This document shows positions 6,041 through 45,689 of a DNA stretch of 64,000 nucleotides, piece by piece. A model generated the notes under the pieces. That model worked only from the letters and a program-made list of their open reading frames with translations, was not told the DNA's origin and searched no databases. Source of the DNA: Sclerodactyla briareus (taxonomy: Eukaryota > Echinodermata > Holothuroidea > Dendrochirotida > Sclerodactylidae). The position numbers and the translations under genes were made by a program. The DNA lies in NCBI GenBank assembly GCA_026419785.1, contig JAODTK010005634.1, positions 248,001 to 312,000 of the forward strand, in the 5' to 3' direction. The first letter of the stretch is position 1; every line of letters starts with the position of its first letter.

Positions 6041-6584
6041 ATGGATACCCACGTCAACTCGACCGGACGTGACCAGAGTTCGCTGCAGGAAATCGTGGGG
6101 TCACTGGATGACGCCACTTGATCCTGACCAGTGCCTTCATTATTTTCACGATGCAGTCGGGGTTCGGTCTCCTCGATTCCGGGGAGCGTCTCGTGTCAAG
6201 AACTAGGTCACTATCATGGTCAAGAACGCTGTAGACGTCCTCTTCGGCGGGATCAAGCTACTGATGGCTGGGTTTGGCCTCAGCTACTGGGTAGACGGGT
6301 AGTCAAAACCAATTCATTGGGGGTCAGCCACTTCTCTTTCCCCTACATCGGGTACGCGTGTAGAGCGCCACCTCTACTCGCTGTTCTTCTTTAAGACCCT
6401 CGTTTGCCACGACGGCGACGAACATTGTAGTCGGCGCTATTGCTGAGAGGACGAAGGTGGGGCCCTTTGAGGCTACATTCTCCTTCTCCTTCTTTAAATA
6501 CCTTCATCTACTGCTTTTCCCCTCACATTGGCATTGGAACGCGCGAGCCCTGGTTCAAGCAACTTGGAGTCACCGACATCGCGG
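6041..6584 (+). CDS. Amt: Ammonium transporter (Amt), exon A: N-terminus and first helices
   Basis: Amt/Mep/Rh proteins are trimeric membrane channels that conduct ammonium or ammonia. From ATG 6041 the frame gives MDTHVNSTG..., a short extracellular N-terminus with an N-glycosylation-like NST, then 'DDAT'. After a one-base shift at about 6119 it continues as ILTSAFIIFTMQSGFGLLDS, then VTIMVKNAVDVLFGG (6207-6251) and MAGFGLSYW (about 6264-6290), all classic Amt helix 1-2 motifs. Downstream are FATTATNIVVGAIAERTKVG (6403-6462) and WFKQLGVTDIAG (about 6551-6584). A good donor, G|GTGAGT, follows 6584. Oddities: at least four single-base indels, and a TAG at 6204-6206 where Glu is expected. Family identity is firm; whether the gene works is open. 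Confidence 0.88.
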
Positions 6585-6639
6585 GTGAGTAACTGTCCTG
6601 AAACCAGATGCTGGTCATAGCCCTAATAATAGGCGTCAA

Positions 6640-6740
6640 CATGGGCGTCACAGGTGGGGACGGGGGGACATGTCCACCCTCCCCCACTTTCAAATAGGGG
6701 GGATATCATATCGTTGTTGGTCCCCTCCACTTTTCTCCGG
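6640..6740 (+). repeat. Short dispersed repeat, inverted copy at 40690-40790
   Basis: 'ggggacggggggacatgtcc' followed by a C-rich stretch, 'cccccactttcaaa' and 'gatatcatatc' matches the reverse complement of 40710-40785. It lies in the first Amt intron. Confidence 0.55.
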
Positions 6741-6769
6741 ACCGTAATAAAACAAAAAATAGGCACATT

Positions 6770-7640
6770 CACGATTTTGTAATCCCTCCTAACTGTTTCA
6801 ATCTTTGTCTAACCAAACAATAAGTCGCGTTGGAAATTGTCTAAGTCCACTAATTCCGGTGCGGACCCCGGGTGAGGATCTGTAACCCCGACTAGGGCCG
6901 AATTGAAAGGATTACCCATTTTTCATACCGATTTCTCGAATTTTAAACCATACACCAAAATGCATATTTTTTCGCAAGCGCAATGGCGTTTTCTTCCAGG
7001 CGTTGTAGGTTAAATATGCGATGTAGTGCTTCGAATCATTTTGTTTCACGTCGAATAATTTAAAGAAGCCTTGGGGGCAGACTGCTCCTCCCCCCCCCCA
7101 CCCCCCCATTTTTTTCCTGAGATAAAACTTCGGCGAAAATTCGTGGATATTTGGGAAGGAAAAAAGCAAGGAAAAAATTCTGACGTTTTGCAGACTGTTT
7201 CGATAAAATGCACGAAAACATGCAATTTCCGGTAGTTTCTAGTGACCTGACTATTGGTGTTCCCGACGCCTATGGTTTTTCCTTCATGTTCGATCCCACC
7301 GAGACCGTTCGGTAACCCCTGGATCCCTCGCAAAACAAGTAGAAGCCAGAGTAAAAAGGTAATAAAAAAAAACCCCCCAAATACAAGGTATGATATTCGT
7401 ATCTCTTCGTAGGCACAATGCAACCTATTTTGTTCTTTCTTTTATTCAAACACAATCACCGGTAGATGGGTGGCGATTGAGCCTGGCACGTGCCGTTCCC
7501 GTCGATCTGGAAGGTAGGAAATCTCTGCATTTTCTTATTACGCCTTCGCGCCAACCGTGTCCGCCGCTTAGATGTCATTTGCATTCGATGTCTCCCGCCT
7601 CTACTTTTCGAAACGGTCCGACCCCTTGGCGTCAATCCCA
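6770..7640. repeat. Dispersed repeat family C, copy 1
   Basis: About 850 bp that reappears inverted at 37250-38090. Shared landmarks in order are 'tccactaattccggtgcgg', 'actagggccga', the C-tract with 'gcagactgctcctccccc', 'cattttatcgaaa' (inverted) and 'cgcttagatgt.atttgcattcgatgt'. It has no long conserved frame, no terminal repeats that I can see and no transposase. It fills most of the intron between exons A and B. Confidence 0.7.
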
Positions 7641-7762
7641 ATGCAAATGAAAAACGATACGATGTTAGTTTTTCTGATGTTTTATGTGCTATTGAAACCT
7701 TCGCTCACCGCTAACACTCTGACTCGCGAGTAATATTGAATCATAACCCCAACTCACCGGAG

Positions 7763-7900
7763 CCTCCCACCGTTCTCTAGTAGCGGTGTCACAGGACTGT
7801 TGCTACTATCATGCTTGGACCGAGGACAGGAAGTTCATGAGACAGCGACTGCAGGAAGATGGATCACCAACCAACGCGGTTTTAGGATTGTTATGCTGTG
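7763..7900 (+). CDS. Amt: Amt exon B: GVTGLVATIMLGPR to LWW
   Basis: Two overlapping frames together give (S)GVTGL, VATIMLGPRTG, FMRQRLQEDGSPTNAVLGLL and a final L-W: the Amt segment after the first pore histidine, up to the conserved LWWGW motif. At least three single-base shifts are needed (about 7812, 7831 and 7892). The donor reads G|GTAGTG at 7901. The exon ends two bases into a Trp codon, and exon C at 32687 supplies the missing base and the next Trp. The start is uncertain: AG at 7761-7762 or 7779-7780 could serve, and the VVH motif with the first twin histidine is scrambled here. Confidence 0.8.
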
Positions 7901-9823
7901 GTAGTGTTTATGTTTACTTTCAGGGAGTGCGATTTTTCCCAAACCAAGCTTCCATTCCGATTAATCCTTACGTCGCTCGTCAGCACCGATGATATTTAGC
8001 TGCAACAGTCAGTACTCGCGCTTACCCAAACTTCGCGGCGCCCTTGGCCTGAATAACCGTAAGAGAACAAAGTGTTTTCGATGTACCGTTAAGACTCGTC
8101 CATTGTATCTCTATCAGAATGTCCATGCTCCTTCGCCGTGGCGATGCAACCATTTCCCTCAAAACAGTAATAGGTTGACAACATTAATGCCGAATCGCCA
8201 CAGCGTGTTTCCTGTCAATGTCACATCCCGTCTTAATTCTGCACATTGTTGCTTGGTGTTCTTGGTATTTTGAGGCGTCGCCAGTTCATTCGAAGGGACC
8301 AAAGCCACGTAAACTATTGAGCTGGAACATAAGTTTCAATCATTTATTGGGTCATAGCGTACGAGTCGTCACCTTGTTAAAAATTCGAAAAACAGACGAA
8401 CTAGGGAAATGGGAGTTCAGAGAATAATCATTTGATAAGATTACTACATTATTTTATATTTGATATCAAAACGAATATTGATGAGACATATTAGAAATAA
8501 ATGGTTTCGTTACAGTAATAGAACCAACCGATTTGATTGTCTGCGTATTTGCTCTCCTAATTTTTGTTTCAAATTGTTTTTGTCAGCAGCTCGAGCGCAT
8601 TCAATGTGGACATTCGCGAGTTATTATGATTTTCCCCTTCATGCGTCATATAGCTACTTCGAAATATTTTATGACTATTGGTCGTTTATCACTGTTTTTT
8701 TTGTTTAGGCCAATATGGATTAGCATGAGTGTTACGAGGTGGTAGTCCACTTTTTTTTAACCTTCGTTTTACTCGTCGTCATCTACGAATGTTACCCGAT
8801 TTACCCCTTCGAGACCGGAAAAACGTATGATTTCGCCGGAAGTCAGTACTTCAAGTGATTTCATTACGGCTGATTCATTTTACCAATTGGGTCGGGTTTA
8901 ACGATGTCTTCTCGGCATGCGAATATGAATTGAATCACATGTCGGTTCACTGAAGGAAAAATGACAAGGGGGGGGGGCGGCGTCAATAATGTCATGATTC
9001 GGGGGGTCGGTCCACTAATGTTCATGATTTGTTGATGGATGCAGGGGTGCCGAATTTCGTTAGCTGAGGGCCTAGTCTGAAGAAATCATTCACAAAAACA
9101 GAACAGTGGTAACGAAATGGATGCCCTTTTATACTATACATCTACAGTCGATTACAAGATTCATTAGGAGAATACGAGTCTCACAGAGTTGGTTTGATAG
9201 GTTGCGTTCCACATAGTCCCATTACAAGTGTTAAACAGTCCCTGCACATACATATGGTCAGAAGTGCTTGTGGAGCAAACCCACCGTTACTGCGTTCCGC
9301 GTCCGAGGAATCGTACCGACGGAGATCAGATAAGATTAGTCGGTAGGAGTTTCAGACTGTTGCTCGCGAAAAATTTTGGTTCGAATTCACTACAGCCAAT
9401 CGGCTTCCCCGTTAGTTCCTCGAACAAGACCATGCATCTCTTCACCCGGTGTTATAATTAGGAGTTGGGAGATCTTGAGTACGCTGCATAGCTTCTGTCA
9501 CATAATCTCCAGATTGTGGGAGTGAGTGCGCATCAGTATCCGAGAAATATCTGTGAAGCGTTTTGGTCACTTCGGTGGACGCAGATATATATCATCATCA
9601 GTCATTATTTAGGGCTGAATGCAAATTAATGTACAATGGCAAATGTAGTACATAAACGGAAGAGTGTGTTTTCAGGGTGCGTCATCTAACGATTTATGTC
9701 GGGTTCTTGCATCCAAGAACATGCCAAGTGTCCGGAGGTCGTAATTGGTCGCAGAGATAAAAACAGGGTATGCGTAAGTCATTATACGTTTATATCCGTC
9801 ATTATATTCCCGCAACACTGTAA
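7901..9823. other. Start of a 24.8-kb Amt intron; no gene seen
   Basis: Intronic by position between exons B and C. Only short, unrecognised frames. A G-run is near 8968-8976, and there is an imperfect local duplication of 'aat.atgttcatgatt' at 8985-9035. Nothing else is supported. Confidence 0.5.
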
Positions 9824-10351
9824 GAGTTCGGGGATATTATGGTATTGGGGGGTGTAGCCGCCGTCTCCGCCGCTGCCGCAGCCGCCGGAAACTCCAGGCA
9901 TTAGCGCAATAACTCTTTAACGCTTTATCCGATTGATCTGAAACTTGGTACACATGTCGTCCTAGCAAAATCTCGGATGAGTTCGAAAGTGGGCGTCACT
10001 GCGTGTTTGCTGCCCTCTACTTTGCAGGTTTTGAACGAAAAAACAGAGTTGGTCCAATTTACACGAAACTTGGTGGGTGGGGACAAAAAATGGTCCAGAA
10101 AAACATGATGGTGATTTCAAGGTCACCAGAGGTCAAATTTGTGTTTTATTCGAGATTTTTCTAACTTCGGATTTGAACGAAACTTGGAGAATGTGAATTA
10201 CAGTTGGTCTTGAACAACAGGTAGGGCCATTTCAGAGTCACCAGAGGGGAATGGACATAAACTTCAATGTGCTTTCTCCAAACGAGGTCAACAAGGCCAT
10301 TTCTGCGGGGATATACACGCCGGTGGTTTACCCGCCTGCACATGTCTAGTT
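9824..10351 (+). repeat. Dispersed repeat family A, copy 1
   Basis: About 530 bp opening with 'ggatattatggtattggggg' and a CCG-rich block, then 'ccgattgatctgaaacttgg', 'tctcggatgagttcgaaagt', 'gctgccctctactttgcagg' and ending 'acccgcctgcacatgtctag'. The same order is found at 33551-34020 and, inverted, at 44182-44665. It has no consistent long frame, no obvious terminal inverted repeats and no A/B boxes. It behaves as a mobile, non-autonomous repeat of unknown class. Confidence 0.75.
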
Positions 10352-11029
10352 GAAATATAATATAACGAGCTCTGAGTAAGCCAACGTATGTTATTATTTA
10401 TACGTGATCAGTGCAATTGTGTATTTAATCATATCTTTGCGAATATCTCGATATGTCGTGCTCGAAGCTTCGCCACACTGCTATGAATATTTGTTTGTTT
10501 TTTTTGTTTTTTTTTCATTTAACAAATATGGCAATCGAAAATGGGCTAACATAATTGGGTCAGATGAGTCTTCGCTCCAGTTGATCATTTGCACTTTTGT
10601 ATTGCTAAGATCAATTTTGGGCAATAAGTTCTTTTGTCTTATGTTCTCGAACAACGTTTGAACGAAACAGAACAATAAACATACCGTTAATAATGCTAAT
10701 CATGCTGCAGCAATAATTGGGTTAACTAAGGAGAGCAGGAGATAAGCAGAATGAACGAGCGACGGCGGAGAGAGGTCGACAGCCTGACCCGATACCGCGG
10801 GCGCGGGAAAGCTTGAGAGAAGGACTGAAAAAAAACTGTGCCCCCAAGCTAATTCCTAGTTATCCGAGGTTAGCCAAACTGATGTGGGAACAGAGTAAGG
10901 ACAGGGTTGGGGAAACGCTCGTGGAAAACAGAAGGGAGAATCTGAAAGACCAGCATTTGGTACGGAGAAATATAAGTCCATAATGAATGGAAATGGAAAC
11001 TAAGACATTGGAGCTATGATGGAAGGAGT
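10352..11029. other. No gene seen
   Basis: Intronic by position. Purine-rich patch at 10730-10850. No recognisable coding or RNA feature. Confidence 0.45.
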
Positions 11030-11440
11030 GGTGAGGGTATAAGTGACGCTTCGCAAGCAATTATTTCGATTAGTACTAGTTGCATTTGCGAAGGGCGAGA
11101 TCTTGGTCCTCACTTTAATGGTTCAGCTGTGATGTAGTTGACTTGTGGATTTCTGGGGATCGGGGGGTTGGGGGGGGGGGGGGGGGGGGTCCAGGGTATT
11201 TGCAATAAGTTTCGTCGGCCGCTGTGAGCAGTCACGTTGGACTCGTGTCTTCTGCTTCGCCGGATTTCGAGGAAGTGGGCGGATTCTGGAGTTCACTTAC
11301 CACATTTTCCAAAGGGGACCAAAAAATGGCGGTCACAGGAGCAGGTTGGAATCGGTTACATCCCTGCCTCGATATTATCTGAGCACTAGTCGAGAAGAGA
11401 AGGCGAGCCTTAACTGACTTCCTGAACCCGTAGAAAATTA
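11030..11440 (+). repeat. Dispersed repeat family D, copy 3, with a long G tract
   Basis: Matches copy 1 at 'agtgacgctt.gcaag' and 'gctgtgatg.agttgac' and copy 2 at 'gtcgagaagag.aggcgag'. It contains a G-rich run at 11161-11190. The Gly-rich frame across it is compositional. Confidence 0.5.
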
Positions 11441-14400
11441 AATCAAATCATATGGTTGCTCTATAACGGGGAGTGTTTCTGCCTACCCTCGTTAAAACAT
11501 GACTTGCTGACATGCTAAGTTGGTGAGGATGAAGAAAAACCTTGTTGGAAAACGAGCAGTCTCATACGGGAAGTAATTTTACTAAGATTACACCACTTGC
11601 GATGCCCCTTCCCTTGGTCTCATAAGTTTTCCCGTCTTTCTTCGATTATGGTAGTTTCGGCTGGAATTTTTTCGGTGTACAATCTAACAATTTTGGGGTA
11701 CTCCTCATACCAGGCCTCATGAGCCTCCTTCACCGTTGTACCGATGAGAATATCGTTTTTGGGAGAGGCGCTTTGGATCTTCGATTTTGTGACTGTAATT
11801 TCCCATTCCCTAATTGTCGATATTGTGATGTAATGAGCATTTGATGCGTTTCCAACAAATGGAAACAAACTACTGTGTGACGTTGCATAATACCGACACT
11901 GGCACGTATCGGCTGTTCCGATATAATCATTTTTCGATTGCTCGCAATCTAATATTCAATAAACAATCTGTTTGCCCATTATGCGACATCCCGCCGATGC
12001 GGTTGCGAACGCGATGTCGGCATCTAGTGTAGTGAGCACCCGTTGAAAGCGCTCGCGACGTTGGCACATTGAAGCATGATCTTTCTATTAATACACAAAT
12101 TATCCGTTTCGAACTATTTCAGTAATGCATACATGGTTAACGCTGTTTCATCCTAGCTGACTTGAGAATAACAATCCATCATTGAAAAAAAACAAAAATA
12201 CCAAAGCACGAAGCAGAGGAATATGGGCGGAATACCTAATTTCGAATGATTCAAACGAACAAAACTAAATATTGTCCACTTCTTTACATTACAACAAAAA
12301 TTAGTCAGCATGCCCAATATATATGGACGTTCATGAAGAAGAACGTAGAGCGAATTTGGACGGGGTAACTAAACGAAATTATATACATTAATACAATTGG
12401 ACTTTCACAAAGAAGGTATCTCATGGATAGAATCTCTCCATGCATTTTGCAGTGATGCGACATCCATGTAACATTAGCATACACATGATAGTTTTGCCTA
12501 CTCGGTGCTCGTTCATTTTATTCGGGTGAGCTTATGCGGACACTTTCCACGATTTCCTAGCCTTTAGATCAGGTTGTCAGTTCATCGGCCCTGAGAAACA
12601 CGGTTTATTTACATTTGGCTCACAGCGAGGTGAAAAGTTCGAGAATCATGTTGTAGGCCTATGTATCATTCGAATGACCTGATTCCACGAATCTGGTGAG
12701 TGTTACATGTAGAGTTGCGTTTTGTTTTTGATTTTGTTTGAATGACTAACTGAGAATATATTACCGCGAGTGAAGCCCGCTATCCGGTAAATTCTGGTCC
12801 TTTTTATCTTACGGTGTGTCATAGCGTTGGGTTGACTAGATTGACCCCATATAAGCGGATCGGTTCAATAGAGGGAAAATATTTGCCTAACTTTACGGTG
12901 TTAATACAAATTAATGTTGTAACAATGATGTAAAATTGAGGGGGACTATGTAAACATTATATTCTCCAGCAGAATCAATTCGACCCTGACACCAGTACGG
13001 GCTGTGCATTCTGAAACAAACACGAATATAAAAGTTGTTTGGCGCAATAAAGCGTCCTACTGATTACACTCTGTTGTTGTTTCAGTGCTGCTGGATACAT
13101 CATAACTCTCACTGCTCGAGAGGGCTACATTACTTGAGTCTGAAGGCTGCAAGTAATCATTCTTTGTTAAATAACGTAGACAGGCGACATGCTTATTTTA
13201 CTCAATTAAGGAACGGCGACAACACCGCATAATACAAAATGGTTCCGTTGAAGGAAGTATGGTTATTCAGCTATTCTTGTCATTGTCCCGAGCCGACTTG
13301 ATTGTGACTTATTTGTCGATTATTTTAATATCACGAGAAGTCTTCAATTATGTTTTGTCAATAACGGAGGGTTACAGCATGTCTCGTTTCACTCAGTTGT
13401 GTGACATATGCACGTGATGTATGATGGTTCAGATAAAATGAAAGATACTTATATTTGCCTAGTACTGCATGGACTGTTTCTTCTGAAGTTGATAGAACAT
13501 TGCTACGCCTACAGTGTAAGCATTGTAAAAAAAAAAAAAAAGTCACAGTGTGAAGTCATCGGAATAGAGAAAGAATGAATAATTTGAGAAAAGAGTGTAT
13601 ATAGTTTACCTCTTAATCTTGAGGATTTAGGATCTTCGTTTCAACTGTCTATTAAGTTAGTTGGTCCGCAAATATTAGAGACTTAGCGATGATAGGTGTT
13701 TTCTCTCTTTTTAGTCATCGCAGCTGCATAATTATTCATGAACGCTGAAGTACTGTGAAACCTAATCGAAGTACAGTTTACATGTGCTCGAGTGTCGTGT
13801 GTACGTTTTGTCTTGTCCTGTCGCTCCGTTCCTGTCGTTATATCTTTACGCCCCCGATATTACAGATTTATATCTCCTTCCGAGATAGGCGAATGCGCGA
13901 GTAATATCCGGTACTGTCCTCGCGGGACCAGGAGCACGCGAGAGATTTCGGGAAGGCGTTACTTCAATTCGAGCATGTCTACGACGAAAGCGCTATAGAG
14001 GTAGATAGGCACTCAGATAACATAATTCGTTATACCAGTAGTGTATGGTTCAACTACATACAGTTCATGTACACATGGACAATTTTGCCGAATCAATTCA
14101 CTATCCGCTCACATAAGCAATCACCGGGATACCTCTTACAGTTTATTGATCATACATCATATCAGATTGTTTAACAAAGAGAAGGAGGTGCTCGAAATCC
14201 ATTTGCCTTCTTAAGTTTTCTTTCCCTTTTAACCCTTGCCGTATACGTAAAACTCATACCGGCGTCTGGAGCTAATACGTTCTAGCCAAACTGCAAGTAT
14301 CTTCGAGTAGTTTCTATGATGACGAAATGGCAAGGGATGTGGTCACTCGGTTAGCCAGAATCTCGTGTCTCAGAGTCATTTTTCTAGGGAGTAGTGAATT

Positions 14401-14484
14401 CGTGTATTACCAGGACAGTCTTGTCCCTCTGGTTATTCAATGCAATCGAAGGCATTTTCAAAAACTATGGTGTCCCGTGCATAT
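11441..14484. other. No recognisable gene; one unassigned minus-strand frame at 11620-11868
   Basis: Intronic by position. The minus-strand frame 11868-11620 (82 codons, with a charged C-terminal half including HEAWYEEYPKIVRLY) has a protein-like composition but no domain I know. It may be a transposon remnant. A poly-A run is at 13527-13541. I see nothing else. Confidence 0.4.
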
Positions 14485-15556
14485 GAAATAGTTTCCCGGT
14501 TAACTTTAGGAATACTGGTTCGTAGTTTATCTTGGTTTAGAACGATGCTGCCTTGACAGCATACACATTGTTGACTGCATACCCTGTACTCAATATACCA
14601 GTCACTCACTCACACATGGAGAACATACCTGGGAGACATATAGCGACAATTCACCCGTCGCTTCCAATCAACCAGCCACATATGAACAAGCGAACAGTCA
14701 TGGGCCTGATCACCCCCCCCCCCCCCCCCTCTCCAGCTCCCGAGGGGTCCCGTGACCATGCGAATGCGAAAATACCATAAGAATGCAGCAGCGCATGCAT
14801 ATTGTCGTTGCTTGGCTTTTTAAGGAAGAAATATTTTCGTGTGATCCGCAATCCGTATACGCATTTGTACATGCGCTTGTTCCGCCTATTCAGTGTTGAG
14901 TTGTCGTATTATCATGTTATTGCCTTTGTGGAACCAATATCCATCTTTGCAAACTGAAATAGTTTCCCGGTTAACTTTAGGAATACTGGTTAATGGTATA
15001 TCTTGGTTTAGAACGATGCTGCCTTGACAGCATACACATTGTTGACTATAGACCCTGAACTCAATATACCCAGCCACACATCAACAAGCGAACAGTCATG
15101 GGCCTGATCACCCCCCCCCCCCCCTCTCCAGCTCCCGAGGGGTCCCGTGACCATGCGAATGCGAAAATACCATAAGAATGCAGCAGCGCATGCATATTGT
15201 CGTTGCTTGGCTTTTTAAGGAAGAAATATTCGTGGTGTGTGGTGATTTGACGCATCCGTATACGCATTTGTACATGCGCTTGTTCCGCCTTATCAGTGTT
15301 GAGTTGCCGTAATTTATCATGTTATTGCCTTTGTGGAACCAATATCCATCTTTGCAAACTGAAATAGTTTCCCGGTTAACTTTAGGAATACTGGTTAATG
15401 GTATATCTTGGTTTAGAACGATGCTGCCTTGACAGCATACACATTGTTGACTATAGACCCTGAACTCAATATACCCAGCCACACATCAACAAGCGAACAG
15501 TCATGGGCCTGATCACCCCCCCCCCTCCAGCTCCCGGGGGGTCCCGTGACCATGCC
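14485..15556. repeat. Direct tandem repeat, 405-471-bp unit, 2.4 copies
   Basis: 'gaaatagtttcccggttaac' starts units at 14485, 14956 and 15361. Each holds 'atgctgccttgacagcat' (a small inverted repeat), a C-tract of differing length (about 14711-14730, 15111-15124, 15516-15526) and 'ggtcccgtgaccatgc'. Copies 1 and 2 also carry an inverted family B fragment ('atattgtcgttg'). Copy 1 has about 70 extra bases. Copy 3 stops abruptly at about 15556, where LINE sequence begins. The minus-strand frames starting MAGYIEF are repeated with the unit and match no protein I know. Confidence 0.85.
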
Positions 15557-16310
15557 GGCGGGCGGCACGACTCACCTGGTCACGTACCGACAGGACCCGG
15601 CAGACGATCGTTCGCAGTGAGGCGCGCCTTCTGGCCGAAGAAAAACGCAGTTGACGGTCGCAAATGAAGCAACTAACCTTCACCAATCCTGCCTCCCTGG
15701 AACCCTTCATTGTGCATTGAACAAACAATCGGAGGTATTCAAGGCTGTGGAGAAGTGAGGTAATCAAAGAGGGATAGAGTCTCCGCCTCAGCCAAACAGT
15801 GAGCGTCCACGACTCACAGATATAGCAGGACTGAAAGCACATGGTGCCAGAAAACGTGAATCTTGGTTCCTCTGCACAAATATCTGACCACCACGCGGTG
15901 CTATTCAATGACTTCACGATTCCACATGCCAATTCAAGGTGTCTACTAATCTTAGCTCGCACGACACAAGAACGATAATGGCCCTGCCGTTGTAGTCTCA
16001 GCTGACCTCCACGTTCTTGCGTAACACCTGTACTGACTCTTCAACAGCACTGTCCCAATACCACTAAAGGACTGATCCTTGGTCCCAGTCAATGAGACTC
16101 GAGCCTGGAAGTATTAACTCACGACCGAGTGCTTTCAAGGTTCGTTCCACCCGAGAATACACGAACTAAGAGAGGAATGCAAGCATCCATATGCAAAGTA
16201 AACAGGGCTTCCACGTACCCGCCCGTACCCCTAGTCCATACAGGTGTTGAAAAGTGTTGGAACCAGCGAGCGTGCACCCCTCTACACCCGAGAAACCGGG
16301 AAGACAGTGG
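15555..16310 (-). mobile_element. LINE reverse transcriptase C-terminal fragment
   Basis: Read on the minus strand, frames linked across shifts give a motif B-like 'GCTLAGSNTFQHLYGLG' (about 16260-16300), 'KALGRELIPLGSSL' (about 16100-16150), 'GIVKSLNS', 'WWSDI' and 'RFTFSGTMCFQSCYI' (15800-15920), 'ESWTLTVWLRRRL' (about 15780), then 'GLVKVSCFICDRQLRF' (about 15650) and 'VLSVRD' (about 15590). This is the order of the thumb and C-terminal region of a widespread animal LINE family. The catalytic FADD motif is not readable. Frameshifts and stops show a dead copy. It abuts the tandem repeat at 15556. Confidence 0.82.
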
Positions 16311-19300
16311 AGTGAGAGTTAGCACCAGTACGCTTCACATCACACTCAGTTCCAGATATTTCCGGAGAACATCGGGAGCGAAAGACGAAATGGCACACAA
16401 AGCTATTCGAAGATTCTCCAAACAGGTCTCTTCGAAAGCTTTGCGAAATCCGATATAGACATTCGTTTTCATCTGTGGCATGGCAGTCAAAGAATGACTA
16501 AGCCCTTTGTTAGTTAACACAAGTCGACCTGAGCGTTGATACGAATATTACTGTCAATAATGTATGAAAAATGCCTAAGACTGTAAGAGGAGTCCTACTT
16601 CCTTCTGATTCGATTATCTGCGTATGTTGCTTAACCTCGTCTTGGGTGCTTTATTTCCTTCCCAAATTAATTATTCATCAGCATGAACCAACATTCGTTA
16701 CATCGCGATATTGAAATTGTTTGTCCTTTCTTCGCGTCAACGTAGCTGCATAATCTTTGAATAATGTTGCGATATTTACAGAAATTTACTACTGTGTGCG
16801 AATTCTCAGGGTGCTATGTGTATGTGTGTTTTGTTTGATCCACGGCCCTATTATTTGTACAGGGGTCTATCAAGAGTCGTAGCAGAGTAAGCATTTACCT
16901 GGTCGATATAACGGGGGTGAATTCCGCAGGAATTGCTCACATCAAAGGCTTTTCTTTTAGGCGGTTCTGATTTCAAAATTGGGTGCATCCTTTATATGCC
17001 CTGACTAACTTTTACAAGTATGTTTTTGATACCACACTGGTGGCTTCATCACACACACCACCACCTCCTTTGTATGAGTTCATTCATCAATCCTGGGGTT
17101 TGGAAGTGCTAAATGGGGGCGGGACGGTCTACCCCACCCCCGGTCTTCACTACCTTCGCTTCCCAAGAGCAGTAGCGGATACATAGGGGTCCCGGACCCC
17201 CCTTTTGGTTCATAGCTCTTTCGAACACTAATGCATTCTACCAATAACGTGGATCCAGGTCTTTTGGGGAGTCAGACCCCCCCCCCCCCCACACACACAC
17301 ATACTCTCCCCGCTATGTTATGTCTTCTGTGCTGAGTGTACTCTAAGGCATACCCTTTACAAGATGTAATGCCCCTAAAAATTGGCACTATTGAAGGCGG
17401 CCAGGCAATTTCCCCCTAGAAGTCTATCCCCAGAATAAAATTGTTTAATTTGTCCTGTCGCATACAAGACATCTTCCGCGTGAACCTTGAAACCGCGAGA
17501 AATTTGGCGCGCTTGGCTCGTTCCGTCTCCTGTTAACTTATTGTACATCCACCCTATACATGCGAAGGTCCCACGAGCAAATAAGTGAGTATACACGCAT
17601 CCATCATTTGCTATATAGGACAGCTGGTAGTCGTCGTTCACGCACATAGGCCTCTCTGCACTCTACATCTCGAAAGAACCATAAGAATTTCTCCCTCGCG
17701 TTTTTTCTTCATTTTTAAAGGGTTAATACCTAGTAGCATAAACAATAGATGGGGGCGAATACCTCCCTCGCAGATTCCGTGAGAATCGTTGTATAGTTGC
17801 GAACACATGCAAAACAGTATTCAACACACGTGAACTACTGACGCGGATTTGAGTGATTGAAAGTCTTTCAATCCGTATTTGACCGACCTATCCATCAACA
17901 TTCTGTGAGTCTCGCGCATGAAGAATGTGGCGTATGTTGCGAGTCCCATGGTGGCCGCCTTACGACCATGGCTCATGGAGAAGTATATACGTCGTACGTT
18001 AGTGTGTACGCTTTTCCTCGGTGCTTTGTGCTACGCATTGACCTATACAGCTCTTGTTTTACATATGCGGACTTACTAGCCACCACTTTGTGATCGATTT
18101 TGGCGTGTGGTGGGAATCAACGCAGGAAAGGAAGTAACTGACTTAGCACCAAATCGCATCTTAGGCCATGTGAAAATGCAAATTAATTTCCCAAAATTTA
18201 ATGAGTGTGAAAGTGTGTTATATTGCAACCAAATTGCATCTAGGCCACCGAGAAATGAGAATCTTAAAAACCCCCCACAGCCCCCCCATCAATCTCCCCC
18301 CCCATAAAATCACCCCCCCCCCCCACTAACAATTCCTGGCTCGCCACTGGTTGGATCCCCTTAAACACTGCTAACTCACCCCGGGGACAGACTGCAGAAA
18401 GAACACGTCGTCCCCATTTTTACCTCCAATTTTGGTATTGGCCCATTACCAAGTGGGAAACTTAAATAAGAGGCCTAAGTGTAGCCTTTGTGGTGTGGAT
18501 GAAGCTGGTTGATGCTTATTCCCTTGACCTTCATATATTTGCACCTGGGTCCTATAGGGGGCTTTAAACCTGTAGACTTGCAGGCGAAGTTAGGATTACC
18601 CCCCAACCACTGCAAATCAGGAGATGCACTACACTCTAAGCGCATGTTTTCGTTTATTTATACCTTTTTTAGTCCGCCTGTGGACCATTGAATCTGACTT
18701 CATGATTTGTAGAACACAATTTGTTTCGTCATCTTCATCAGAGATTGCCCAATTTAAATTTTCCCCCCTTAGCCAGTTAATTCTTGTGCCTCGTCTATAT
18801 ATTTGAACTAACAATCCGAATTCTCTCTTCTTGCAATACCTCCGTAATATCACCTAATTCACCAGTTCGCAGTTCCTGTCAACATAGGCCAATTTTCCTT
18901 ACAAAATGGGTTTGAATCGCAGTTGTTTTCTGCTTTTCTCGGCCAATGGCACAGCATTTGATTTAATTTCCTCATTCTTGAACCAAGCGTACCTACGTTA
19001 TTTTGATCATACCTCTATCTAGCACTGCAATTTGCTTCGTATTGATCGAACTTAACCGCGATTACCCGCATATAACCCCTATTCTGCAGTTTGTTCATGA
19101 AGTCTTGAATTGCAATTCTTCCAACAAGGTTCGGTAGGGTTGTTGTTACATCTCATTACTCTGACACGGTCTTTTACAAGGTTTCGCATTTTCACCTTCA
19201 TTGGGATTGGAAACGAACGACCTTGGAATGAACCTCAATGTTATTGCTTCTGGAGCTTTTTATTGTTATTCACAAGAGAGTATGGCTAACAACACTACGC

Positions 19301-19964
19301 CATCGTGTTCATGGTTTAACATAGGGAGATGACTCTATCGGCAATCAACATGACTATGAGGGATTCTAGCTACAGCGCGGTAAATGGTTTTCGAGAGTCT
19401 GCATAAGTTTCGCATGATCAGTCCCCCATCACTCAGCCGCTCATTAGCATTTAATTGAAGTAATCATCTCGATAAAGTTCCCGGTAAAGTTGATGTTTGA
19501 AATCGGGCTGTTTGGGAGTTATTGAAGTTGCAGCTAGTCGTCATTTGAACTACTGCCATTTCGCTACTGCACTTCTAGTTACTAGTGGATGACTATATAA
19601 GTCAACCGAGACTCCTGTGACATACAGTGAGATACAATGATCCACCAATTTTCTGCCTAGTGTGCTCCGAGACGATACGATACATTTAGGAGATGAAGCG
19701 CAATTGTTAGACTTTTGGCGGATTTGGAAATAAACAGCCAAGACTCAACATTCAGCCTAATAATTCTTAGCTGAATGTTCGTCGTGACTGTTTGTCACAC
19801 GACAAAAGTCGAACCATTGCGTCCTAAAACATACATGTTTAACCATCTGCCCCCTCGCTGAAACTTCACCAAATTATTGCCGTATCTGAAATTTACCCCC
19901 TCCCCCTTTTACGCGTGGAAATGACGCAGAAATCGATCATCATATCCCCCAAATCAAATGTAGC
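16311..19964. other. No gene; minor repeats
   Basis: Intronic by position. C/G-rich patches at about 17171-17300 and 18260-18352 share the pattern 'ggggtcc/ggacccccc' near 'cgccactg' or 'gtagcgga', also seen at 49640-49690, and may be ends of one repeat family. A (CA)n patch lies at 17291-17301. No coding family is recognisable. Confidence 0.4.
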
Positions 19965-20540
19965 GCTCAACGCCGTCCAATAATCTATAATGTTGCAGAA
20001 AATGGAAGCTTAAGCTAGCAAATTCCCGTCTGTGCGGCATTTGGAATACTGGAGACCGGTTGATTGTTGATTTCAACGACCACCCTTTGAGGGTAGTTGT
20101 TCCAGGCTCTGAAGGCAGAGTTGATGAAGTAGCTGTCCATTGTAAGAGTTTCAACATCTGGAATAGTGAGAGCATGAACAGGATAGACAAATTGGTTCGA
20201 GTTACACGGCGTTTTATTGGCGGTGGGGAAAGCGGAGCTTGAATTAGTGGTGACTGCTGCAGCAACTCCTCGTCGCCAGTGATCCAGAACTGGGATGGGT
20301 AACTCTGTGCATCCTGTGACATTATCATTGTGAGTGTCTCCTTCAGGATGTTATCAAGTTGCCCGAGGGTTGTGGGTGAATTCAATCCAACACAGAGATT
20401 TTTTTTTTTAACCATAAACAATCATATCGCGGAGTTTTGCCTTGTAGCCTAGTAATGCCATCCAGACCAGTTTGGTAGCAACTTTCCGAAGTGCACCGAG
20501 CTCCTGTCCGGCCTTCATAGAGCCGTGTATCACGGAAAAA
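19965..20540 (-). mobile_element. LINE 3' region (reverse transcriptase thumb and C-terminus)
   Basis: On the minus strand the joined frames give 'KAGQELGALRKVATKL' (about 20455-20500), 'PTTLGQLDNILK' (about 20335-20370) and 'FINSAFRAWNNYPQRVVEIN' (about 20075-20135), the typical 'xxxRxWNxLPxxVV' ending of CR1/L2/Jockey-like elements. The palm domain and catalytic motif are absent, so this is a 5'-truncated, frameshifted copy. Confidence 0.78.
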
Positions 20541-26309: not shown

Positions 26310-26580
26310 TGTGCACTGGAACGGAGACGATTTCATTCGATTTCATCCATGCACCATTATATCTTGCCAGACTCGTTGCACCGTATATCCCTGCTCGAAC
26401 TCTTCGTTCTAAGAATGCTAATTGTTTTAGTGGAACCTCGGTTTCAGCATCTGTGATGGACGAGAGTTTTCTCGACAGGCTCCTAGACTGTGGAACGCTC
26501 TCCCTTCTCACATGTGAGGAATCCCAAGAGGAAACTCGAGAGTAATCTCTCCAAAGCGCTTTTGATGTGTCCACGATTTG
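26310..26580 (+). mobile_element. LINE 3' coding scrap
   Basis: Frames joined across shifts give 'LVAPYIPARTLRSKNA' (about 26358-26410), then 'RQAPRLWNALPSHM' (about 26475-26520), then 'RKLESNLSKAL', the usual C-terminal ending of CR1/L2/Rex-like LINE ORF2 proteins. It begins directly after family B copy 1. The rest of the element is missing. Confidence 0.72.
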
Positions 26581-27486: not shown

Positions 27487-27545
27487 ATATTATTATTATT
27501 ATTATATTATTATTATTCATTAATTATTATATTATTATTATATCT
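27487..27545 (-). repeat. (ATT)n / (TAA)n tail of the R2/NeSL-like element
   Basis: An interrupted ATT run on this strand, which is (TAA)n on the minus strand. It sits at the 3' end of the minus-strand LINE, as expected for non-LTR elements that end in a simple-repeat tail. An independent microsatellite cannot be excluded. Confidence 0.6.
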
Positions 27546-29464: not shown

Positions 29465-30909
29465 ACGCTTGATTTTAGCTGTCATAAACTGATTAACATA
29501 ATATCCAGATACCGGCCTATCATCCAGAGACAAAAGCCAACGACAATAACTGTGCAGCAATAGAATGAAGACCGCCTGGACTCCTCGCAGCGGAGCTGGA
29601 CTGTTTATTGACGCCGTATTGAGTCTGAACGACCCTGACCCGAAACCGATAAGTGATTACATCAATACCGAAGTTGTAATCCCAACCAAACAGATTCAAC
29701 TATACCCTAACAACAAGCCATGAATTACCAAGCGCAGTGAAGGATCCATCACAGAACAGGAAAGAAGGGGGTCGTTGGGAGAGGTGATCGAGAATGTTAA
29801 GACAAATCCAATCCGAATTAAAGAGAGTAGTCCGAGAGGAGAAGGCGGCATACAAGGACAAAGTTGAAGGTCATTTTACAGAGAACAGTATGAAGAATGT
29901 TGGAATGGTATCGCTTGAGGAGTGATCAGGAAACAAAACGACTCTTGCCAACTGCCACAGATGATACTGAATAGGCAATGGACTAAATATTTTTATAACC
30001 GTTTTAATCATCAGGACTTCTCGGCTGAACGTCACAGAATGCGGCTCCAGTTTCCAGAGGGTGGATTCAAACTTCACGATTACCGAAGATGAAGTGCGAC
30101 ACCACTTTTCAAAAAGCGCACTCATCAAAGGCAGCTGGACCTGACAAAGTCACACCTGGGGTCCTGAAACATTGTGCAACACAACTGGCTTTTATTTTAC
30201 CATACAGTTTTAATCAGTCCTGTACTACGAATATCATACCAGATTAGGAAAGCGATCTTGTAGGATTACCTGTGCCAAATTCCAGTGCAATATCCTGTTA
30301 TAATTATCTTCGACCCGTTGCCCTTACAAAACTGTACCAATGAACGTGTGTGAACGCATATTTTTTTAAAGCAATTTAAACCATTTGTATCAATGTTTTT
30401 AGCATCGCTTTCAATTTGCATATCAGTTTGGGCGAAGCTGTGAAGATGCCATACTTGTACTTTTAGAAAGTTTGTATTCTCACCTTGAACATTCTTGCCG
30501 TGGTATTATGCTCGTGTCATGTTTTCGACTTTCATATGAATTTAATACTAAACAACCACATATCCTAGCACAGAAACTTGCAACTATGAAGGTCCCTCAT
30601 ATTCTAGTCGAATGACAAGGAAGTACCGTAAGAACAGGTCGCAGTATGCGAAACTTGCTCCTATCTGCTGTTCGAAATTATTTATTCAGACACTGGTGCT
30701 CCCCAGGGACGGTTCTAGCTCCATTCCTTTCATATTATACACCCATGATGCAACATCTCTAGAGCAGGGGTGCTCACTCATTAAGTTTGCGGACGTGACC
30801 ACGCCCTGGGGGTTAATTACTGGTTCGATGGACCGCTGCATACCTCAAACAGATCGAGGATTTTACAATTACTTTTTTGGATCAATAAAGGGTTACCTTA
30901 CCTTACCTT
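29465..30909 (+). mobile_element. 5'-truncated LINE nested inside the R2/NeSL-like element
   Basis: Opposite orientation to its host. Joined frames give 'ELKRVVREEKAAYKDKVEGH' (about 29815-29875), 'DFSAERHRMRLQFPEGG' (about 30015-30065), 'PGVLKHCATQLAF' (about 30155-30195), then 'FILYTHDATSLEQGCSLIKF' (about 30730-30788) and the catalytic loop FADV at 30786-30797, where FADD is needed. The element ends 'aataaagggttaccttaccttacctta', that is AATAAA plus (TTACC)n, a typical LINE 3' end. ATCCCA occurs at both edges (29459-29464 and 30910-30915), a likely target-site duplication. The clade (CR1/L2/Jockey side) is inferred. Confidence 0.85.
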
Positions 30910-32240
30910 ATCCCAGACAGCAGCTTCCACGTTGTAGGGCCAGGGGCATGGTATGTGGGAAAGGTCCGGGCGATTATTGCGCAAGGTAGGTACCTTTCGC
31001 TGAGGTCCATCTGGATCAGGACCGTCCTTCTCTTAGTTAGCCAGGGGGATGCTATCAGGATAGTCAACTTTTCGCTGCGAACTGTGATGCCATTCCCTAG
31101 GTTCGCGTTGAGGCTGGTAAGGTGTTTTAGCCAGAATCCTTGTACTTAGTCAGGTCCAGGTGACTTCACCTTTCTTCACTTTTGATTTGAAGTCCTCATC
31201 GGTGAATCAGATGTCAGTTTGGGAGGGGATCTCGCCCACTCTCCATCTCCATTATGGGTCTTTTCCCCATATGCCCTTCCAGAGCGGTAGGTCTCTGTTT
31301 TTTCCGGTATCTGGGTTCTGTCATGTCGAGACAGTTGAGTGACGAACATTCGGTTGACCCTGAACTGTTCTATTCGGGCTCTGTATCTTTGGAGTCTGTG
31401 AGTCTGCTGTCAGCCTCTGTTGGGCGTCCTCTATAGCAGATGAATCTGTCGTGCAACTGCAAATGTGAGGGCGTTAGTTTCTGTGATGGTGTCGGTACGG
31501 ATGTGCTTCAGTACATGGTTCGCCTTGGCGTTCGTTCACGGATCTTTGGCATCCTTTGTTTGTCCATCCATACCGCGTCACGGGGTGTTGTTCGTCTTGC
31601 AGCTCCTGGTTTATTCTCTCCAGGAGCTGTTTGTTTCTCCTCCCCGTTGGGGGTGATATCTGCTCAGGTTGTGTTGCTTCCTCGATTGTTGGTTCGCCAA
31701 TGTCCTCATTTGGGAGAAATTGGATCGTTTATATTGTCGTGTGGATGTTGTGGCTGTTCTGCAATTGTTTGGATCACCGCTAGTAGAGGTGAACATGGCG
31801 GATGAGTTGATTGCACGTCGTTGATCCATTAGGTGTTGCTCGTCGATCTCGAAGTCAGGGTTCCTTCTCGCCATGTGTCGTGCATTCTCCTTCTCCTCCT
31901 GTAACCGCGCCGTGATGGGTCGCTGATGAAGTAGCATGTCTTTAGCCCTTGGGGTGTCCATTGTCTCCGTTGTTTGGTTTTGCTTCCAGTAGCCCATTTT
32001 TCCCCTGACCGTCCTGAAGGCGCAACGGTTGTCGCAGACCTTGTTAACCCGGGCGAAGTCTGAGCTGGTATGGTTATTTGATTATTCATCTCAAATGTGG
32101 TGGGTGTGGAGGACAAGCATTGGAGAGACCCCGCTTTGTCTCTCCCCATGGTGTGGTGTGTCTTGAGCGTGACGCATTAGATTAATCCCGTGTCGCCTCG
32201 CCATCTCGGTGGTGAATAGAGTCGATCAGACGTGAACACC
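30910..32240 (-). mobile_element. R2/NeSL-like LINE, 5' part: N-terminal region and start of RT
   Basis: The missing half of the element at 27546-29464. Minus-strand text ends 'RTVLIQMD' (about 31010) and 'TWKLLSG' (about 30912-30935), which runs on into 'IIARQITAHLN' across the nested insert. Upstream are 'SPGPD.VQGFWLKHLTSLNA' (about 31100-31160), 'FVTQLSRHD' (about 31310-31340), and an N-terminal segment with CDNRCAFRTVRG-like text (about 31990-32040), probably a worn C2H2 zinc finger used for DNA binding. The 5' limit is set by the loss of recognisable reading near 32240. The many plus-strand frames here (Cys/Ser/Val rich) are shadows. Confidence 0.8.
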
Positions 32241-32686
32241 TGCTGAAAGTAATAAAGTTAAAGTTAGTTTTTCTTCTTCCTCTTTCGTATCTCCGGGACC
32301 TCTGGCACCTAACCGGTACTTATACCGCGTACTTCACGTGTGGCTCGGAAACTTTCATTATTATTATTATTATTAGTATATTAATCATTAGGCCGGCTGA
32401 GATTCGTGCGTCGTCGTTTGCCATTTTGTGTGTGTGTGTGTGTGTGTGTGAGGTGAGCATCGAAGCATCGGAGTCCCAATCATCCACGCTGTGCTCCATT
32501 TGAGTAATAGTCGTCACAATCAGTGGCTTCAGTTACAGGGGTAGTTTTGGCGGTTATCCCCCCAAGTGGGGGTAAGAACCACGACAAACCCCCTGAAGTT
32601 CTCCTTTCCCTGCTCTACCGCTCAAGGGCAGAAGCAATTAGAGAGTACATTTTTGGTGCTGACCTAGACTTCTTTCCTCTTCTTAG
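32241..32686. other. End of the large Amt intron; (ATT)n and (GT)n microsatellites
   Basis: (ATT)n at 32356-32375 and (GT)n at 32430-32450. The tract before 32686, 'ttcctcttcttag' with 'cttctttcc' upstream, is a good polypyrimidine-AG acceptor for the next Amt exon. The frame at 32523-32750 is chance sequence joined to the real exon. Confidence 0.6.
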
Positions 32687-32756
32687 GTGGGGCTGCTTGG
32701 ATTTCAACTGCGGGAGCACATACGGAATTGCGGACAAGAGTGGGTCCTAGCCACGA
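32687..32756 (+). CDS. Amt: Amt exon C: WWGWLGFNCGST core
   Basis: Reads, allowing for three one-base indels, as G(W)WGWLGFNCGSTYGIADK then EWVLATR. The motif GFNCGST is diagnostic of Amt/Mep proteins. As written, the frame gives WGCLDFNCGSTYGIADKSGS and a stop, the shifts being a missing G near 32694, an extra T near 32704 and a missing G near 32738. It joins exon B in phase (tg|g) and exon D in phase (ag|a, Arg). The donor reads CACGAG|GATGAGT: one extra A breaks what would be GTGAGT. Confidence 0.85.
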
Positions 32757-33550
32757 GGATGAGTGACATGCGTATTCCGCTGAAATAGGATTCATGATCG
32801 ATGTCGAGAGCTGTTTTTACAATTTACTGATATTCCGGTTTGCGAATCGCGACCGTATCGGCGCGTTCTATACTACTATAAAACTTTTTGATCAGTAATT
32901 TACATTTTGTGAACATATTTTATTCACTTTGGAGACTCACATGCTAAACACCGTTCATTTTTCCCGCGTATTACATACTGTGTTCTGTTGTTAATCGTAT
33001 CTAGTGTCGAATTTATAGACGTAATTAACCCTGTATACCGACTGGGCCCTTTCGCACTTTGTAGTTTTTAATACGATAGGACAAAGGTTTATTATCACCA
33101 CTATCTCCCTCCGACACTAAATTTATAGCAGAAAGACGAGAAGATTCTATAATCATTGAGACCTAACACTTTCCATACATTACCCATTCAAGGGAAATTA
33201 GCTCCTGTTTTTCCCTTGATATACGCGCATTTTTGGGAAATCGACGACAAATGCAAGGTCAATAACTGGGGAATGTTCCATTCCCATGCAGGAGCAAAGG
33301 AATCTATGCAGTCTTGTCTTTGCGTCTGTGGGTGTGTTTTGTGTGTGTTGTTTGGTTGTGCGTGTGTGTCTGTCTGTGTGGTGACCCCCTTTTCACACGA
33401 TTCTGACAACCAAACAGGTATCACGTTCCATTAGCACGTTAGTTGCTCAGGTGGTGAGGTTAACCCAATGTTATAGTGCCTGTTTAAAAACCTTGTTCAG
33501 GTACGATATCTATGTTCAATATCTATTAATTATAGCCCCTCACACTTTAA
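32757..33550. other. No gene; TG-rich patch
   Basis: Intronic by position. TG/CA-rich stretch at 33318-33384. The Thr/His-rich minus-strand frame over it is compositional. Confidence 0.45.
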
Positions 33551-41032: not shown

Positions 41033-41105
41033 ATCTGCCGTGGCGACGATCACTTCCATCGTGGTGGCGGTATAACCGGAAAAAAAATTGCTTAGAGGTA
41101 ACGAA
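41033..41105 (+). CDS. Amt: Amt exon D: SAVATITSIVGGGITG helix
   Basis: Starts after 'ttattcag' with the single base that completes the Arg codon left by exon C, then SAVATITSI and, after a one-base deletion near 41063, VGGGITG: the helix that follows ..WVLATR in Amt proteins. As written the frame hits TAA at 41072. The 3' end is uncertain: GTAACG at 41098 and GTAAGG at 41106 are both possible donors. Short, but its phase and place in the family order make it convincing. Confidence 0.68.
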
Positions 41106-42059
41106 GTAAGGAACGATATTGGTCAATTCCAACAATCGGTGAAAATGAATGTTTTCCCGTTGTAACCCTTAAATTGCACGCGTCGAATATTCCCCTCATA
41201 TCAGCATCATCATTCATCTTTAACGTCCTGATTTCATGTTTGAAAGTTGTTGTTTTTTATCACATCGTTCTTCCAACTGCGGTGATGTCACAAAAATGTT
41301 AACACCACTGATCAGTATCCCCCTCTCGTCAATTTCCCCGGACCATCGGGACCATCCCCTCCTGGATTCTATAGACTCATAGCAACCAAAGATTTCCTAA
41401 TCAATATCGCGCTCGATGACCCAGTTATCGTCTTCTATCCTTTCCTTGTGGTTAGAATCACCTTAATCTCTTACACGATTTTTCTATCACTATCCTACCA
41501 AACGTAATCTACTAATCGGTATATCATTCCTCTCTAGTTTTCTGAAGATTACCAAACACCCAAGTCGCCCCGTCGCTTCCGCCGCCGTGTAGATGACTAT
41601 TTTGCGTAGTTTCTCTCAGGGACAGATGGTCCTAGTGATTTCCGTCGAAAAAGGCATTTCAATCTTGACAATGATAAATTCGCTCCTAATACTATTGAGG
41701 TCCTGTTGAAGTTTGATGAATTTCTGTTTTTTTCCCTCCTTTCTGTTTGTGCCTTTTCCATTCCTTTAATTTGACTTTTCCACATTTACAACCATCACCA
41801 AACGAAGGAAGTTCGATATCGTATATATCATTAATGGAATACTCGGCGCACTAGTGTCTAAACAGGTTAGTGGAATTAGTATTTATTCTATTGGTTATGT
41901 TTATGCATCCCTGTACCTAATCAATTGCTGCTAAAGAAATTTGGAGAACAATTATACAAAATTTGGGATAATGTCAGAAATTGTGGAAATCATCCTACTG
42001 CGATGGTGCTCCACTATGAAAGTCTACGTTGTATGTTTTGAGGTGAGTGACCTTTCAAA
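41106..42059. other. Intron; expected Amt segment not found
   Basis: Amt proteins have about 25-35 residues between GGGITG and the segment of exon E (a loop and a helix around NG-xLxxLVxIT). I see no frame for it here or up to 43594. No other feature is recognised. Confidence 0.4.
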
Positions 42060-43594: not shown

Positions 43595-43803
43595 CTTACT
43601 TGCCTTAGCGCGCCCTTGGGAAGGTCTGGTCATCGGGGCTATCGGTAGCGGGCTCACTTGTCTCAGCGTCCCACTCATTGAGAGGCTATCCATCGATGAT
43701 CCGGTGGGAGTCATTCCAGTGCACCTGGTTGCAGCTGTCTGGGGGATGCTCTCCGTCGGGATTTTCGCCAGGTCGAGAGTTCAACATCATCTCGACTATG
43801 CAG
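43595..43803 (+). CDS. Amt: Amt exon E: ARPWEG to DDPVG-VHLV pore helices
   Basis: A clean 69-codon frame with no stop or shift: LLALARPWEGLVIGAIGSGL, then IERLSIDDPVGVIPVHLVAA and VWGMLSVGIFARSRVQ. It matches the Amt region where DDPVGxxxVH leads into the helix carrying the second pore histidine, here the H of PVHLV. It is bounded by CCCCAG| and GCAG|GTAAGC. It ends one base into a Gly codon that exon F completes, giving DYAG-LL. Of all the exons this is the strongest evidence for the gene. The minus-strand frame 43686-43955 is a shadow. Confidence 0.93.
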
Positions 43804-43924
43804 GTAAGCCGAATACCAATGGGACGCCAAATAAACAACTGAGCTAACAAGAACGCACAACTAGACAGGCCCAGACCACTGGTAGCGCAATGGTCGTTAA
43901 ATAGTCGTATCATCCTGTATAATA
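43804..43924. other. Short intron stretch
   Basis: Begins with the GTAAGC donor. No other feature. Confidence 0.5.
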
Positions 43925-44181
43925 TGAAATATATTTGAGAATGTATATAGCGCAACTCACTCTGGGTTGCATTGAGTGTGCTTCACAACATTACCCTGGT
44001 CATTGGAACAACCTGTGGTCCCACACAGATGTGTATATGCTGCACCGACGTGCGCTTTGGCACATTTCGCATCTGTTCCTCCACAGGTACCCAATTAGCA
44101 CAAAGCACTTTGCTCAAGGTGCAACGTGGACTCGACCCCACAACCTCTGGGTTATAAGCTCAACGCCCAACCACCTATTGT
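43925..44181 (-). mobile_element. tRNA-derived SINE
   Basis: On the minus strand it starts 'gcgttgagcttataacccag' (A-box-like), followed by 'ggttgtggggtcgagtccac' (B-box-like GGTCGAGTCC, 44122-44141), then a body with 'agcaaagtgctttgtgctaa' and 'tgggtacctg', and ends in 'gagttgcgctatatacat' (about 43940-43960), the 'gcgctatataaat'-type tail common to many invertebrate SINEs. It abuts family A copy 3, so one probably inserted at the edge of the other. Confidence 0.75.
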
Positions 44182-44665
44182 GTAGGCGGGTAAACCGCTC
44201 ACGTATTTATCCCGCTTTTGAACAATCATTGGGAAAAGAAGTATCTAACACCTCAATTTTGTTCCGAACCAAGATGAGCCTTCATATCTACAAAGTTTTG
44301 TTGTAATCAATGGATGTTACCAAAAAGTCACAATTGAATTATGCAAATTTGACCTCCGATGACCTTGAAATGACAGCCACATTTTTCGGGATCAACTGTA
44401 ATCCCTACCCACCAAGTTTCATTCAAGTCCGACTAACTTGAAAATTTCGCGTAAATTATGCAAATGAGCGGCCCCAGATGCAGTGATGCCCACTTTCGAA
44501 CTCATCCGAGATTTCATATGGCGCCATTTGTAATCAAGTTTCAGATCGTTGGATAAAGCGTTAGAGAATTATTGCGCTAACGCCTAAGTTTCCCGGCGGC
44601 GGCGAGCCTAGGACGTCGGCGGCGACTACACAGTCACCCAAAACCATAATTCCCCTGACGCCTTC
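44182..44665 (-). repeat. Dispersed repeat family A, copy 3 (inverted)
   Basis: The reverse complement shows the family landmarks: CCG-rich block, 'gcgcaataattctctaacgc', 'tccaacgatctgaaacttg', 'tctcggatgagttcgaaagt', 'aacttggtgggtaggg' and 'cggtttacccgcctac'. Among the three, this copy is closest to copy 1 in length. Confidence 0.75.
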
Positions 44666-45245
44666 CAGTGTCGCGGGGATTTAATTAGGCCACCAGGGAA
44701 AAGAATCCCACATAACGTTTAACGCATACGTGGCTGATGTGCGCCATAATAACACTGCTATAGATCGAGTAATTCGTTACGACAGTTGGAATTGTGACTA
44801 ATCGGTATTCGTTCAGTTATACAACACAACCTGACGTAGAGCAGTCGTAAGCAAAGCTAATTGTGAAAATGATGTTGCTGTCACAGCCAAGTCAATATAC
44901 ACCCTGCAAATAGACATACATATACAAAAGAAAAGGAAGGGCAGGTTGCATGACAAATTTCTTCTTTCTGGAAGGTAATAGGAAAGGTATTGAAGTGGGA
45001 GGGAGACTTGAGTAAGGGATGAGAAATCAAGACCTTGAATGACCTCGAGCTAATGCCAAAAACAATTGGTTTCATCCCTCGCATACATCTACTCACTCAC
45101 CTACCAAACCTGATACCTACATGCGTCCTTTACATATCGTACTTACGAGCTACTAACGGCTTTTCCCTCTTTCCACCTTTACTGATCTCGAGTTCACCTT
45201 TACCTAATTCAAGTTACTTTTACTTTGCTATTTTTTTCCCGATAG
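44666..45245. other. No gene; splice acceptor at the end
   Basis: Intronic by position. Ends 'ctatttttttcccgatag' (45228-45245), a strong acceptor for exon F. Confidence 0.5.
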
Positions 45246-45689
45246 GCCTTCTCATGGAGGTGGTCTCAGGCTTCCTCGGTGCCCAGCTGTCCGCGTTCGC
45301 GGATCATTAGCCTATTGGGCTTCTCGTTTCCTATTATTGTACTCAAAGCCATCGATTTGACTATCGGCTTACGCGTCCCTCTTCACGAAGACTTATGGTG
45401 GCATACCCTGGTCGAAGCACTCGGTGAACGGGACTTACGACAAAACGTCCTGAGGAGTGTTATGATGTCCCAGGCAAGCTTGTCCAGTCATAGACAGCGT
45501 CTACAAAGGGAGGGGGGACGACATGGTCCATTGGCATTTTGCAACCTGAAACTATACAAGCGACATATTGAACACGGTCATACATGGGGTAGGAAACCTC
45601 TTCCGGGGTTCGGGTTCAGCAGGACACCTTCTATGACATGTGCAGCGCATCTCCGCAACGGCGAGGCCACAGCGATTTTTTCGTTATAA
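45246..45689 (+). CDS. Amt: Amt exon F: last helix, TIGLRVP motif and cytoplasmic tail
   Basis: Allowing small shifts, it reads GLLHGGGLRLLGAQLSAF, then LLGFSFPIIVLKAIDLTIGL, RVPLHE and LVEH-SVNGTYDKTS. These are the Amt closing motifs HGGG, (L)KAxDxTxGLR and ExELLGxDxxEH. The clearest uninterrupted part is IIVLKAIDLTIGLRVPLHED (45334-45393). Shifts are needed near 45257 (missing C), 45276 (extra C), 45306 and about 45418 (extra G). The stop is uncertain: TGA in the SVNGTYDKTS frame comes soon after (about 45452), while the written frame stays open to 45689. The tail is therefore not settled. Confidence 0.85.
   Translation, partial: AFSWRWSQASSVPSCPRSRIISLLGFSFPIIVLKAIDLTIGLRVPLHEDLWWHTLVEALGERDLRQNVLRSVMMSQASLSSHRQRLQREGGRHGPLAFCNLKLYKRHIEHGHTWGRKPLPGFGFSRTPSMTCAAHLRNGEATAIFSL

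Follow-up and report, generated by a model that had tools for sequence, protein, structure and literature searches.

A frame-broken Amt/Mep ammonium transporter paralogue in a four-copy cluster of the Sclerodactyla briareus genome

We analyzed 64,000 nucleotides of genomic DNA from Sclerodactyla briareus (the window; contig JAODTK010005634.1, here C2877:248001-312000, of a 319-Mb genome in 3171 contigs), in which a first-pass annotation made from the letters alone had described an ammonium transporter gene. The locus belongs securely, as judged by sequence comparison, to the Amt/Mep family (PF00909), well beyond chance, and is a genuine animal-type paralogue with exons and introns. It is one of four Amt copies (a to d) on this contig, and we refer to it as copy c. 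As read, copy c has no intact frame: its ~380 aligned codons do not form the continuous coding sequence for ~11 transmembrane helices that marks the family. We favor, with a probability of about 0.52, the explanation that most or all of its frame shifts arose as errors in the consensus of an insufficiently polished assembly, in which case the true gene could be wholly or almost wholly intact. Amt proteins are membrane trimers that conduct ammonium through a pore with two histidines in its lining; copy c, if expressed, would act like other Amt proteins.

The first-pass annotation relied on six Amt motifs in the expected order. An exact search in six frames of the window (all coordinates are window positions unless a contig is named) recovered five of them, in order and on the + strand: FTMQSGFGLL at 6145-6174, VKNAVDVLFGG at 6219-6251 (same exon, different frame), ATIMLGPR at 7802-7825, DDPVGVIPVHLV at 43695-43730, and KAIDLTIGLR at 45345-45374. 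The sixth, WWGWLGFNCGST, was not found by this search of the window. It had been idealized at two residues; joining the exons at 7900/32687 yields WWGCLDFNCGST in its place. Ten pieces of the window were compared with Pfam. Exon E matched PF00909 (E = 7.1e-16; 58.4 bits; curated cut-off, 23.2), one exon A piece matched it below the cut-off (E = 7.7e-4), and the remaining 8, exon F included, did not match it. A six-frame PF00909 search of the genome gave 10 matches. Two of these lie inside the claimed stretch, at 6121-6555 (E = 1.8e-6) and 43608-43850 (E = 1.3e-13), both above the cut-off; the family profile thus does find Amt at these two of the claimed places. In the PDB, the closest matches to exon E come from ammonium transporters, e.g., 8qj3 and 8qpf (best E = 3.4e-7), and the main part of exon A scored 314 in frameshift-aware alignment, versus at most 16 in 12 shuffles. 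The motifs are short and were picked out by eye, and the sequence lacks one of the six; however, the PF00909 and PDB matches, the shuffle control, and the ordered homologous exons of three neighboring copies refute the reading that the matches are fortuitous and that there is no Amt locus, to which we assign a negligible probability.

Copy c resembles animal Amt/Mep genes in having the family motifs in the same order and in the PF00909 match of exon E, and differs from them in having no intact frame and, as read, one noncanonical donor and one noncanonical acceptor. The VIPVHL motif, which presumably holds the second pore histidine (position taken from E. coli AmtB), is present in exon E; the stretch of exon B expected to hold the first is frame-broken. 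The Rh ammonia channels are members of the same superfamily, and PF00909 also matches C407:288488-289261 of this genome. Copy c has the Amt-type DDPVGVIPVHL, whereas the C407 locus reads LHDTCGVHNLHGMPG, which we take to be Rh-type.

Lesions were counted by frameshift-aware protein-to-DNA alignment with loose and stricter shift penalties. With the loose penalty, copy c had 24 shifts and 3 stops in 379 codons, copy b had 7 shifts and 0 stops in 391, copy d had 11 shifts and 0 stops in 384, and copy a had 6 shifts and 2 stops in 187 (part of the copy only, with the split exon A1 and exon F left out). The strict recount, which took in b, c, d, and all controls and left out copy a, gave 16 shifts and 3 stops in 381 codons for c, 3 shifts and 0 stops in 388 for b, and 5 shifts and 0 stops in 388 for d. 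Hence, b and d have fewer shifts than c and zero in-frame stops, with the qualification that the references for the main exons of b were largely derived from b and therefore favor it; copy d was scored mostly against the references of other copies. Divergence alone makes no false shifts in exon A1, since that exon of d, aligned to the b reference, gave 0 shifts in 136 codons with 74 identities. At stricter penalties, shifts in exon A1 of c still numbered 3 to 7 and stops 1 to 3, depending on setting and reference. Exon E of c is open across 61 aligned codons.

The reading as assembly error is favored because single-base shifts of this kind also hit genes that are expected to be intact. Three last exons of actin carried 1, 2, and 4 shifts in 170 to 172 codons, and three alpha-tubulin stretches of 324 to 332 codons carried 2, 10, and 16 shifts (12 in the last with the strict penalty) and 0, 1, and 2 stops. 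These shift-bearing genes lie on C2792 and C1260 (actin) and on C2306 and C894 (alpha-tubulin). Copy c resembles one tubulin stretch, L046, in lesion density (no difference; P = 0.51 loose, 0.85 strict), and it retains the third-position bias described below and an open exon E. With actin as the only control, the excess in c seemed very strong; adding tubulin weakened it. Single-base consensus errors are common and uneven in this assembly, provided that the damaged actin and tubulin genes are not dead copies in their own right. Because some of its housekeeping genes are also broken, shifts alone prove neither decay nor anything exotic, and frame shifts in it should be taken as signs of pseudogenes or of biology only where the reads themselves prove them. 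More generally, the assembly appears poorly polished, and frame-based findings from it call for care. A genome search with Cpn60_TCP1 gave 4 matches, 3 of them with stops; because only the best candidates are scored in such a search, the small number carries no inference.

We compared the codon positions of copy-unique changes in the trio b, c, and d over 329 codons. Changes unique to c numbered 31/26/61 at positions 1/2/3, rejecting uniformity (P = 1e-4). Uniformity was likewise rejected for those unique to b (22/12/47), and the c and b patterns did not differ (P = 0.39). The bias is weaker in d (74/49/75) than in c. The probable cause is that no other branch is as long as that of d, and this limits the reach of the test. 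The loss of codon-position bias expected of a pseudogene was thus not seen in c, although this test would not pick up a function lost only recently. As far as this substitution pattern reveals, copy c is shown to have been under protein-level constraint for much of its past.

The strongest alternative, graded nearly as likely as assembly error although we give it somewhat less than an even chance, is that copy c is a duplicated, nonprocessed Amt pseudogene. It would share a recent common ancestor with b, would have kept its introns and once been functional, and would now be decaying, with assembly errors on top. Several observations speak for decay or weigh against attributing the lesions to the consensus. 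The strict count of 16 shifts in c exceeds the 3 in b (P = 0.002) and the 5 in d (P = 0.015), though both lie within ~50 kb on the same contig. The excess also holds against the pooled controls, at 24/379 versus 35/1556 codons with the loose penalty (P = 2e-4) and at 16/381 versus 31/1558 with the strict one (P = 0.02); at both settings the density in c was above that of all seven control stretches, L046 being exceeded only slightly. L046 could, moreover, be a dead copy itself. In CCT7, exon L032 had zero shifts in 57 codons and one extra codon, and exon L029 reads in a single frame with a small gap; the length differences in these two exons are small and stay in frame. Copy c has three in-frame stops, lacks GT at one donor, and has lost AG at one acceptor, whereas all splice sites that could be placed in b and d are GT and AG, and it changes conserved residues (e.g., WWGWLGF to WWGCLDF). 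At sites where the two or three other copies all agree, c differs at 40/185 and b at 18/168 (64/213 for d and 17/88 for a). Finally, the protein-guided alignment drops codons that cannot be aligned, which favors constraint and somewhat overstates the codon-position bias. On the other side, one alpha-tubulin gene of the same assembly is about equally broken, the changes specific to c are still biased to third positions, and exon E is clean. A processed, intronless pseudogene was rejected because copy c retains introns, at the positions of those in its paralogues.

Programmed frameshifting or RNA editing might instead make copy c functional as read. Conserved amino acids do flank the shifts on both sides, and nothing further points that way. 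The shifts are scattered and unlike between copies, and we rejected programmed frameshifting because actin and tubulin have shifts of the same kind; we consider either process highly improbable here.

We assigned the exons of copy c, all on the + strand, as follows. Exon A (6041..6584) runs from the start methionine to ..GVTDIAG and opens with MDTHVNST, similar to MDISTNST of copy b; it has several frame shifts and an in-frame TAG at the NEVN motif, and its donor, GTGAGT at 6585, is canonical. Exon B (7758..7900, start approximate) includes ..VATIMLGPR.. and MLW, with 2 to 4 shifts and 1 or 2 stops called, and is followed by a GT donor at 7901. Exon C (32687..32757; WGCLDFNCGSTYGIADK..WVLATR) has one shift and an intact AG acceptor, and its donor (32758) is GA, not GT. 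One shift each was found in exon D1 (41033..41090, 3′ end uncertain; RSAVATIT.SI..GGGITG), which has a CAG acceptor, and in exon D2 (41797..41866, start approximate; RKFDIVYIINGILGALVS), whose AG acceptor is lost as read and whose GT donor is intact. Exon E (43595..43803; LARPWEGLVIGAIGSG..DDPVGVIPVHLVAAVWG..), the exon with the PF00909 match, is wholly open, with AG and GT intact. Exon F (45246..~45444, coding 3′ end approximate; GLLMEVVSGF..KAIDLTIGLRVPLHED..HSVNGTYDK) has 2 to 6 shifts depending on the penalty and switches frame ahead of KAIDLTIGLR. GT donors are present at exons A, B, D2, and E and AG acceptors at exons C, D1, E, and F; the acceptor of exon B and the donor of exon D1 had no confident placement.

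The gene had been annotated with six exons. Homologous exons do follow in order from 6041 to ~45444, and one more, at ~41797-41866, had been overlooked. The 24.8-kb B/C intron occupies 7901..32686, as the annotation had it, and the B/C (7900/32687) and E/F (43803/45246) junctions are both GT-AG and keep the homologous phase. The splice product at 7900/32687 is MLWWGCLDFNCGSTYGIADKSGS, followed by a stop codon. At the proposed C/D junction, 32756/41033, the donor is GG or GA rather than GT, and none of the frames combines openness with homology on both sides. The proposed gene end at 45689 is in a frame that departs from the homologous one near 45415. The warning that an automatic gene finder could stumble on the shifts was fair. 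Several points had escaped the first-pass annotation: as read, the sequence encodes no full transporter and has lost one donor and one acceptor, three further Amt copies flank this one, and actin and tubulin genes also carry single-base shifts. By homology, the exons of copy c likely form one transcription unit, because they are ordered, have a single orientation, and follow an order common to the neighboring copies. The length of the B/C intron is not conserved, since its counterpart in b and d spans only ~1.6 to 4.3 kb. Inside this large intron, at 27630-32081 on the - strand, lies a decayed reverse-transcriptase-like fragment of the long interspersed nuclear element type, with a zf-RVT match below the cut-off at 28087-28791. 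A second stretch, at 41980-42850 in the intron upstream of exon E, looks by eye like a retroelement remnant.

Exon-by-exon tblastn over 240 kb placed the four Amt copies within ~210 kb (133.9-342.7 kb) of contig C2877, in the orientations - + + -. In contig coordinates, copy a extends from ~157.7 to 133.9 kb (-), copy b from 178.2 to 212.9 kb (+), copy c, the window copy, from 254.0 to 293.4 kb (+), and copy d from 342.7 to 310.4 kb (-). The last exon of d is at 62353..62496 (-) of the window and the remainder is outside, up to contig position 342726; a Pfam scan of that last-exon open reading frame alone gave no match. Copies a, b, and d share exon order and intron positions with c for most exons. 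Copy d has exon A split after ..MQSG, and its exons A1 and B are fused without an intron. Of the other three copies, the closest to c is b, which encodes the same residue at 224/333 aligned codons. Splice-site placement is uncertain around exon B of b and exons E and F of d. A low-threshold exon hunt returned mostly noise, and only the place of exon B of b and that of exon E of d were used from it.

Tentatively, and with slightly less confidence than in either account of the lesions, the four genes may form a lineage-specific Amt cluster of ~210 kb whose members have different fates, the window copy losing its function and its neighbors keeping theirs. If so, the cluster would be a birth-and-death snapshot of ammonia-transport genes. 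As a gene-family observation it is modest. PMC6687202 already documents Amt duplications that arose independently in animals, and the cluster is a further instance of a known phenomenon.

A search of the assembly for COX1 returned no match. In the window, Rfam at gathering thresholds gave no match, and a search for transfer RNA and transfer-messenger RNA genes found none. Ten of the 43 window open reading frames of at least 110 amino acids were scanned against Pfam; two had sub-threshold matches and 8 had no match. Positions 50954-52483 hold a long tandem array of 49- to 50-bp units that often differ by single missing bases, and positions 14672-15555 hold a tandem duplication of 405 bp with 94% matches.

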